From the NCBI RefSeq assembly GCF_005155025.1, contig NZ_CP039731.1, positions 4,030,001 to 4,094,000 of the forward strand: 64,000 bases of DNA, given 5' to 3'. This DNA comes from Aquitalea aquatilis (GTDB taxonomy: Bacteria > Pseudomonadota > Gammaproteobacteria > Burkholderiales > Chromobacteriaceae). The notes under the pieces were generated by a model that worked only from the letters and a program-made list of their open reading frames with translations, had not been told where the DNA came from and did no database searches. This document shows positions 8,876 through 11,075 of this stretch, piece by piece. A program made the position numbers and the translations under genes. How positions within the stretch are numbered: position 1 is the first letter of the stretch; every line of letters begins with the position of its first letter.

Positions 8876-9230
8876 AGCAGCGCCACCCCTCGGCATGCTT
8901 GACGGGGGATGGGGTGGCGTCGGTGCGGTGGGGAGTTTGTGGTGGATAGCTGCAATGACGCCCGACTGTGCTGCACCCAGCCCAGTCCTCTCCCAGCAGA
9001 CGCTATAGAAGCAGCCCCATTTATTCCGTAGGCCAAAACAAAACCAACTAGACCGGGCCCCGTCAGCGCAAGCCGACACGGACGTGCCGCTCAGGATGTT
9101 AAGCGGTCGGCTGTCCGCAGCGACACGGTTAGCGCGCCGCAAGTTCCGGCCGCGCCCTGGGCAGCATGGCAGGGGCGGGAATTCGACGCGCTGCGGGTTG
9201 CCTTTTCTTTGGCTTCTGTCTTTTGGCAAA

Positions 9231-9275
9231 AAAAGAAAGAAGCTCGACGGCGGGGCGAGACCCGCGAAGTTAAAC
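9231..9275 (+). repeat. 45-bp dispersed repeat, copy 1
   Basis: Identical to 18061-18105 at 42 of 45 positions; the three differences are all G to A in the segment after AAGCTC. It ends CGAGACCCGCGAAGTTAAAC. This copy lies just beyond the 3' end of the reverse transcriptase gene, where base composition switches from GC-rich to AT-rich. Confidence 0.75.
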
Positions 9276-9339
9276 CATGTAGCGTGCAAGAGATGTAACA
9301 TTACACTTTGACAATGACATTGGGAAGTTTAGAAACATA

Positions 9340-10842
9340 TTATGATGAATAGTCATAATCCAATGATCTTGGATGCATTACTTTTTCAATGCCAATTTCA
9401 GTCACTCCCCTTTTTATTACTTTATATATTAATGTAAAACTAGGTATCTCCAATAGTGTTAGCCCCATAATTCGTTTTCTTCTCATCCGGATGGCGAAAC
9501 GATTTTTGGGTATGCCGCGCGGGAAACACGAGTACGTTACCAATGTCTTTGATGCTACGAGCTTTGCCCTACACTCAATTACCCTATAAACTGTTGAAAC
9601 AAGCCAGCCATCAAGCTCCTTTAATTGTTTCTCATCATCAATCAGCGGGTAAAAACTCATAATGCCCTTGAAATATATTCTCCCACTTCCTCCATTTAAA
9701 AAATCAATTAAATCTTGAGTACTGAGCCCACCGTACATGTATCGTCTAATTTGCGCCAACGCAATTAGCAATGCCTTATCCCCATGAGGTTTTGGTAATA
9801 ATCTAGCATTTACTGGTGTTTGCTTTAGTGGTTGAATTAAATTCTTGTAAAGAAGGTATGATATCTGTTTTTTAATTTTATTGACCGAGTTGGGTTTTAT
9901 CGACACTTTGTCGACCGCAATTGAATAGCCAAGAAAATTAAATGCGCTTTTTGAGTGAATTTCGGCCGGCATATCTCCCTTAATAAGCAGACTTATGCCA
10001 TCGGACTTCTTAGTATTGACCTTTACTCCGGCCTCATTCGAAAAATCAGAAATTAATTCAAACGATCTGCAAATGCTTGAATAACTATCGCTCCAGACAA
10101 TAGTATCGTCAGCGTATCTGGCAAATTTCAAACCAGCCTTTTCAAAACTTCTATCCAATTTCCAGCAAACCATATTTGCTAAAAATAGCGAGATGGAAGT
10201 GCCTTGCGGTATTCCACGCTCTCGCGTTTCCAAAAATGCATTGATTACATACTTATCCTCTTCACCAATAAGAAATCCATTTTTATCGTACTGATCATGC
10301 AAGTATTGATGAGAAATTGACCCGAAAAAATCAGAAAAATCAAACTCTGAAATAAATGCTCTTGAATTTTCTTTTAGCGATACCGATACGTCTTGAATTG
10401 CAAAATGTACATTTCTATCATTTCTGTAGGCGTATGAGAACGAACTAAATCGATGCTTATTTTTTTGAAGCAATCTATTGTAAAATAATTTCGACACAAC
10501 AGAATCTGGAATGGTGTAAATAGATACTTCTCGGCAACCACCGTCAGATTTTTGAATCTTCCTTACAAAGGGAGGATGGGGCTTGTATATCCTAGTTTCA
10601 ATCGCTTTTGCTATGGATTTTGCTATGCTTTTTGATTTTCTTTTTACATAAAATGGATTAAATTTACTATCAATATTCCAATAATCAGGTTTGTGAATGA
10701 TTTTATCAGAATTTATGATAAGTCGTTCTTCATTCCTTTTGTGCTCAAGATGCAAGTAGTTGTGATATTGATGATAGCGTCTAATTAATTTCTTACATTC
10801 TTCTTGTATTAATAGTTCTAGCCTATACTCCAATTTGAACAT
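9340..10842 (-). CDS. Reverse transcriptase, UG/DRT-like (candidate phage defence)
   Basis: The 500-residue protein is an RNA-directed DNA polymerase. Visible RT motifs: KSDGGCREVSIYTIPDSVV (fingers, about 98-116), motif A EFDFSDFFGSIS (about 166-177), motif B GIPQGTSIS (210-218), catalytic YADD (243-246), motif D GVKVNTKKS and motif E FNFLGYSI (301-308). A further 190 residues after motif E hold a thumb-like part and an unassigned C-terminal domain. There is no retron NAxxH/VTG pair, no maturase endonuclease and no Cas1 fusion. The gene is far more AT-rich than its neighbours, a sign of transfer. The ATG at 10842 follows GGAGAG at a proper distance and lies just past an intrinsic terminator; the longer frame to 10905 would translate that hairpin and is rejected. 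Which UG/DRT class it belongs to cannot be settled by eye. Confidence 0.88.
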   Translation of the reverse strand: MFKLEYRLELLIQEECKKLIRRYHQYHNYLHLEHKRNEERLIINSDKIIHKPDYWNIDSKFNPFYVKRKSKSIAKSIAKAIETRIYKPHPPFVRKIQKSDGGCREVSIYTIPDSVVSKLFYNRLLQKNKHRFSSFSYAYRNDRNVHFAIQDVSVSLKENSRAFISEFDFSDFFGSISHQYLHDQYDKNGFLIGEEDKYVINAFLETRERGIPQGTSISLFLANMVCWKLDRSFEKAGLKFARYADDTIVWSDSYSSICRSFELISDFSNEAGVKVNTKKSDGISLLIKGDMPAEIHSKSAFNFLGYSIAVDKVSIKPNSVNKIKKQISYLLYKNLIQPLKQTPVNARLLPKPHGDKALLIALAQIRRYMYGGLSTQDLIDFLNGGSGRIYFKGIMSFYPLIDDEKQLKELDGWLVSTVYRVIECRAKLVASKTLVTYSCFPRGIPKNRFAIRMRRKRIMGLTLLEIPSFTLIYKVIKRGVTEIGIEKVMHPRSLDYDYSS

Positions 10843-10865
10843 ATTGCTCTCCAGTTTTTTAAACA

Positions 10866-10893
10866 AAAAGCCCAAGCGATTAGCTTGGGCTTT
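10866..10893 (-). terminator. Intrinsic terminator in the leader of the reverse transcriptase
   Basis: AAAGCCCAAGC and GCTTGGGCTTT form an 11-bp perfect stem with a 5-base loop; on the minus strand it is followed by TTGTTT. It stops any transcript coming from valS or from the leader promoter only about 24 bases before the RT start codon, so the RT message must read through it. Confidence 0.88.
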
Positions 10894-11033
10894 CCACGGG
10901 TCCAACCTGTCAAAAATAAGTTACCACTTGGTTAAGTTGGTTTTGATGCCAAAGTCCCATCTGGCACATGACTACACTCAAAAGTGGAGACACATCCCAT
11001 CAAAAAGGGGACCCGTTCTTTCCATAAGAAAGT
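10866..11033 (-). ncRNA. Candidate structured RNA upstream of the reverse transcriptase
   Basis: Between valS and RT lies a roughly 170-base segment that can be a small RNA. On the minus strand ACGGGTCC (11016-11009) is perfectly complementary to GGACCCGT (10903-10896), which would close a domain of about 120 bases. Inside it TGCCA/TGGCA, CACT/AGTG and a CC-ACTT/AAGT-GG stem can form, with single-stranded T5 runs nearby. The RNA would end at the terminator at 10866-10893. The position directly 5' of an RT gene is where known UG/DRT and retron RNAs lie. No family was assigned; the 5' end is inferred from a promoter guess. Confidence 0.55.
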
Positions 11034-11039
11034 TGAGAA

Positions 11040-11068
11040 AATTTAGCAAGTAATTTAATAAAAATCAA
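11040..11068 (-). promoter_or_regulatory. Candidate sigma-70 promoter for the RT leader RNA
   Basis: On the minus strand TTGATT (11068-11063) and TAAATT (11045-11040) are separated by 17 bases; each matches four of six consensus positions. It begins 8 bases after the valS stop codon and would start a transcript near 11033. Confidence 0.35.
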
Positions 11069-11075
11069 CTTCTAA

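Follow-up and report, generated by a model that had tools for sequence, protein, structure and literature searches.

The minus-strand locus behind valS in the window, i.e. the whole 64,000-nucleotide stretch of Aquitalea aquatilis DNA analyzed here, almost certainly represents a complete two-part DRT9 (UG28) antiphage system, formed by a reverse transcriptase (RT) and a structured noncoding RNA (ncRNA) directly upstream of it. At the sequence level, the assignment is supported by the gene family, the RNA family, a covarying stem, a conserved template, the catalytic and priming residues, and the kissing-loop bases. The features of the locus are as follows.

11076, minus strand: 3' end of valS, the upstream neighbor of the RNA
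11068–11040, minus strand: probable ncRNA promoter TTGATT-17-TAAATT (sequence; position in homologues)
11033–10866, minus strand: DRT9 ncRNA of about 168 nt including the terminator (covariance model; alignment to the E. coli and Photobacterium DRT9 ncRNAs)
11032–11018, minus strand: 5' hairpin (SL1-like) CUUUC-UUAU-GGAAAG, 15 nt (covarying in homologues)
11016–11009, minus strand: 5' arm of the basal 8-bp stem, ACGGGTCC (RNA: ACGGGUCC) (covariation)
10958–10930, minus strand: SL5-like hairpin around a conserved AUCAAAA loop (covariation, column comparison)
10916–10912, minus strand: U5 tract in the loop before the 3' arm, predicted poly-dA template, equivalent to U124–127 in E. coli DRT9 with one further U through a C>U change (alignment; template role: PMC12483538, PMC12489045)
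10903–10896, minus strand: 3' arm of the basal 8-bp stem, GGACCCGT (RNA: GGACCCGU) (covariation)
10893–10867, minus strand: SL6/intrinsic terminator AAAGCCCAAGC-UAAUC-GCUUGGGCUUU (folding; same place in nearly all homologues)
10852–10847, minus strand: likely ribosome site GGAGAG
10842–9340, minus strand: DRT9 reverse transcriptase, 500 aa, ATG at 10842 (profile and homology)

Judged by its sequence, the RT belongs to the DRT9 (UG28) clade. It matches the PADLOC Drt9 model with E=1e-207 (next-best model, 6e-33) and the PDB DRT9 chain with 2e-195, and shares 58% identity over 497 aa with an E. coli protein which itself aligns end to end (499 residues) with PDB chain 9ioa_A, the DRT9 RT whose cryo-EM structures have been published (PMC12483538, PMC12489045). 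Identity to the RT of Photobacterium sanctipauli, the source species of the tested PsaDRT9 (PMC12483538), is 59%. The catalytic YADD motif occupies residues 243–246, and the C-terminal YDY residues 496–498, where SLDYDYSS aligns to SLNYDYE such that both priming tyrosines (Y496, Y498) are kept; both tyrosines of the C-terminal tail prime DNA synthesis in DRT9 (PMC12483538, PMC12489045). The N-terminal helix with Y25, which stacks on the ncRNA in DRT9, is likewise preserved (YHQYHN aligned to YHEYHN).

Homologous RT loci were compiled from 34 genome contigs and one viral contig, plus relatives. Directly 5' of the RT, nearly all homologues share one RNA architecture, comprising a 5' hairpin, A(A/G)CGG, a variable middle, AACUUACUUUUACU, an arm ending in CCGUG, and a terminator, and this RNA is kept upstream of DRT9 RTs across many phyla. 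A covariance model built from 17 homologues, with the window left out, matches positions 10895–11036 at 77.9 bits (E=3e-14) as the sole hit in the window and, at E=2e-12, as the sole hit in the whole 4.36-Mb genome; the same model recovers the E. coli DRT9 ncRNA, which was absent from the training set, at 96.7 bits. An Rfam search of the RNA found no family. By these sequence comparisons, the structured RNA upstream of the RT is a DRT9 ncRNA. Known DRT9 ncRNAs are encoded immediately 5' of the RT that binds them; they have the terminator-like SL6 at their 3' end and a U4 tract templating poly-dA (PMC12483538, PMC12489045). By homology to these RNAs, the original prediction was probably right in proposing the RNA as template or cofactor of the RT, and, as it had suggested, an abundant small RNA (about 170 nt) that stops at the terminator, with limited read-through into the RT, would likewise be expected. 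The 5' end of the ncRNA was placed by promoter spacing and by alignment to the 188-nt E. coli ncRNA. With the first U of the E. coli tract set to 124 as in PMC12489045, C and G fall at positions 94 and 114, the published kissing pair (PMC12489045); in the window, the bases at both aligned positions are the same, and the AACCAAGUGGUAACUUA block preceding the template is identical to that of E. coli DRT9. Among the other loci, the ncRNA of Luteimonas (L026, 2818–2927) has the template ACUUUAA with three U only, next to an open RT frame with YADD; the RT frame of a Bacillota MAG (L022, 3001–4479) is interrupted after residue 170 by an in-frame stop, with the ncRNA still present; and in a Deferribacterales MAG (L015, 2658–2782) the model match stops about 220 nt short of the RT instead of directly preceding it.

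The arms ACGGGTCC and GGACCCGT are exact complements of 8 bp with 105 nt between them, located, like the RT start codon at 10842, where the original prediction had put them. Taken alone, such a repeat is within chance, since 178 of 2000 (9%) dinucleotide shuffles of the 168 nt hold an equal pair when a gap of 60–150 nt is required. The 181-nt region folds far better than its shuffles (z = -4.67, 0/200). Across 35 sequences, 91% of the cells of the basal stem are paired; its first four pairs hardly vary, and the three that follow show 16, 13, and 17 double-sided changes. For the two main stems together, 88% of cells are paired, with 80 double-sided changes versus 28 expected from shuffles, and the covariation score of 0.521 compares with 0.228 for shuffled alignments and at most 0.200 when the partner is slid by 1–3 bases. 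In a subset of 19 sequences, covariation supports four helices. The covariance comparison with the leaders of RT homologues, which the original prediction had put forward as a check, therefore identifies the basal 8-bp stem, on alignment evidence, as a real RNA helix, even though the repeat alone is weak evidence. The conserved 5' hairpin at 11032–11018 had escaped the earlier description of the leader, and two of the local hairpins proposed within it do not hold up: in the homologue alignment, TGCCA/TGGCA is paired in 39% and CCACTT/AAGTGG in 53% of cells, neither with any covariation. The position of CACT/AGTG coincides with a hairpin of the homologues' own. Folding of the single sequence prefers a different interior (-45.7 versus -31.7 kcal/mol for the homologue-derived fold); as this minimum-energy fold disagrees with the conserved interior, it was not taken as evidence for the latter.

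The predicted promoter TTGATT-17-TAAATT is present at 11068–11040, albeit as a weak match to the consensus (8/12 by direct comparison); in many homologues, a -10-like box precedes the same 5' hairpin by 6–10 nt. The terminator stem AAAGCCCAAGC/GCTTGGGCTTT comprises the 11 bp initially described, and folding extends it to up to 13 bp. A simple promoter/terminator scan lists neither element, so that both rest on position and homology; their positions match those in the homologues. Purified ncRNA lacks the terminator-like SL6, whose role may be in termination (PMC12483538).

In the other 18 close sequences, 39 columns reach a constancy of 90% or more, and at five of them the window has a different base. 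Two of these form a single SL5 pair (10955/10934), changed from G-C to A-U and hence compensated; the SL5-like hairpin of the window has an internal loop. The other three flank the template: 10916 C>U, which creates the U5 tract, 10911 A>G, and 10910 C>A. Among the 35 loci, the template reads ACUUUUA in 25, AUUUUUA in three, and AUUUUUG in the window only; U5 occurs in 4/35 loci and CUUUUG in two. Sequences with U5 sit apart on the RT tree, whose support is weak around the window, and do not indicate a U5 clade. The T5 runs had been proposed, speculatively, as templating sites. By analogy to the characterized systems, only the 3' run (10916–10912) is the poly-dA template; the 5' run is not kept in homologues and was rejected. 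Replacement of U4 by A4 switches the DRT9 product to mainly poly-dT (PMC12483538), which indicates that the U tract templates. It is conceivable, though rather doubtful, that the AUUUUUG template alters the product or its start, by a changed slip on the repeat, another first nucleotide, or an occasional C within the poly-dA; if so, the locus would be a natural DRT9 template variant.

Since single base changes in the template loop mostly impair SenDRT9 defence (PMC12483538), and three near-invariant flanking bases have changed here, this copy is not certain to be active. The same observations would also fit a DRT9 locus that has lost its function through drift of the RNA or the template. We consider such a loss unlikely, because the RT retains its full length of 500 aa, YADD, and both priming tyrosines, no pair of the basal stem is broken, the change in one SL5 pair is compensated, and AUUUUUA recurs in three other loci and CUUUUG in two, so that each template change alone is found elsewhere.

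GC content is 32–43% over about 9300–11075, within surroundings of 55–67%, delimiting a low-GC island after valS; as no DRT9 RT was found in nine other genomes of the genus (one incomplete), this clear DRT9 system stands in a genus whose other nine genomes show none. A reading of the structure as terminator or 3' UTR of valS only, unrelated to the RT, which the original prediction had named as its refutation, draws on the position of the terminator downstream of valS on the same strand, with no other valS terminator present. For these reasons the DRT9 terminator probably also ends valS transcripts. As a full explanation, this reading is exceedingly improbable and is refuted by the conservation of the RNA with DRT9 RTs in many phyla; moreover, most congeners have their own terminator-like hairpin close behind valS, followed by unrelated sequence and without an RT. 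In congener G002 (L053, 3–1422), AT-rich genes follow valS in the place of DRT9, one of which codes for an FRG domain and matches the candidate defence family PDC-S15. Given the FRG-domain gene there and DRT9 here, the valS 3' flank looks like a site of defence-gene turnover, where, judging from few genomes, such genes may come and go. A GC-rich repeat adjoining the island (window 9160–9275) is matched nine times in the genome, five times over nearly its whole length, and similar sequence lies beside valS in two congeners. At the limit used, no RT homologue was found in phage records, and plasmid records held one, in Hymenobacter. The SLATT partner of DRT9 is optional and only occasional. Its profile, PF18160, found nothing in the genome and was equally silent in the control genomes.

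A retron-like or DRT2-like leader RNA (msr/msd, or a rolling-circle template for a hidden gene) would share the layout of a structured RNA directly before an RT, and DRT2 and DRT9 RNAs are loosely alike (PMC12483538), but this reading has hardly any probability left, as the Drt2 and retron models reach 6.9e-19 or worse versus 1e-207 for Drt9, the RT stays below the cut-offs for Drt2 (66.5 bits versus 390, profile E ~1e-18) and retron RTs (best model 62.5 bits versus 235), and the RNA matches the DRT9 covariance model and no Rfam family.

For the DRT9 system, transcription, RT binding, poly-dA synthesis, hexamer formation, and defence are expected by analogy to characterized relatives. In DRT9, the ncRNA is both scaffold and template, with the U tract near the active site, and the RT primes on its own C-terminal tyrosine, producing poly-dA of hundreds to thousands of bases after infection and causing abortive infection (PMC12483538). 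Here, the promoter just after valS would give rise to the ncRNA of about 168 nt; the terminator would stop most transcripts, and limited read-through would supply the RT. The RNA would wrap the RT, with the 5' hairpin and the 8-bp basal stem as scaffold, and place the loop holding AACUUAUUUUUG at the YADD site. Upon phage infection, either Y496 or Y498 in the C-terminal tail of the RT would serve as primer, and the enzyme would copy the U tract repeatedly into long poly-dA joined to the protein, and poly-dA synthesis would lead to abortive infection.

Novelty of the locus is small: DRT9 was already described in 2025, AUUUUUG stands where most homologues have ACUUUUA, and no new mechanism is opened. 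Its value is that of a natural variant for testing the limits of the DRT9 template, U5 being found in 4/35 loci and both flanks having changed at once here. Compared to SenDRT9 and E. coli DRT9 (UG28; PDB 9nlv, 9nlx, 9ioa, 9iob; PMC12483538, PMC12489045), the RT is 58% identical with YADD and Y496/Y498 in common, and the ncRNA is alike in its upstream position, 5' hairpin, basal stem, SL5, U-rich template, terminator, and the retained C94 and G114, whereas the template is AUUUUUG instead of ACUUUUA, the middle region has diverged, and the host belongs to the bacterial family of Crenobacter rather than to the enterobacteria. PsaDRT9 (P. sanctipauli, L006; RT 59% identical) shares the RNA architecture, but its template is U4 flanked by C and A. 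DRT2 (UG2) likewise pairs its RT with an upstream ncRNA that is essential and is copied by reverse transcription, but makes a concatemeric neo gene by rolling-circle copying. AbiK and Abi-P2, like DRT9, are protein-primed, oligomeric antiphage RTs, but work without an RNA template.
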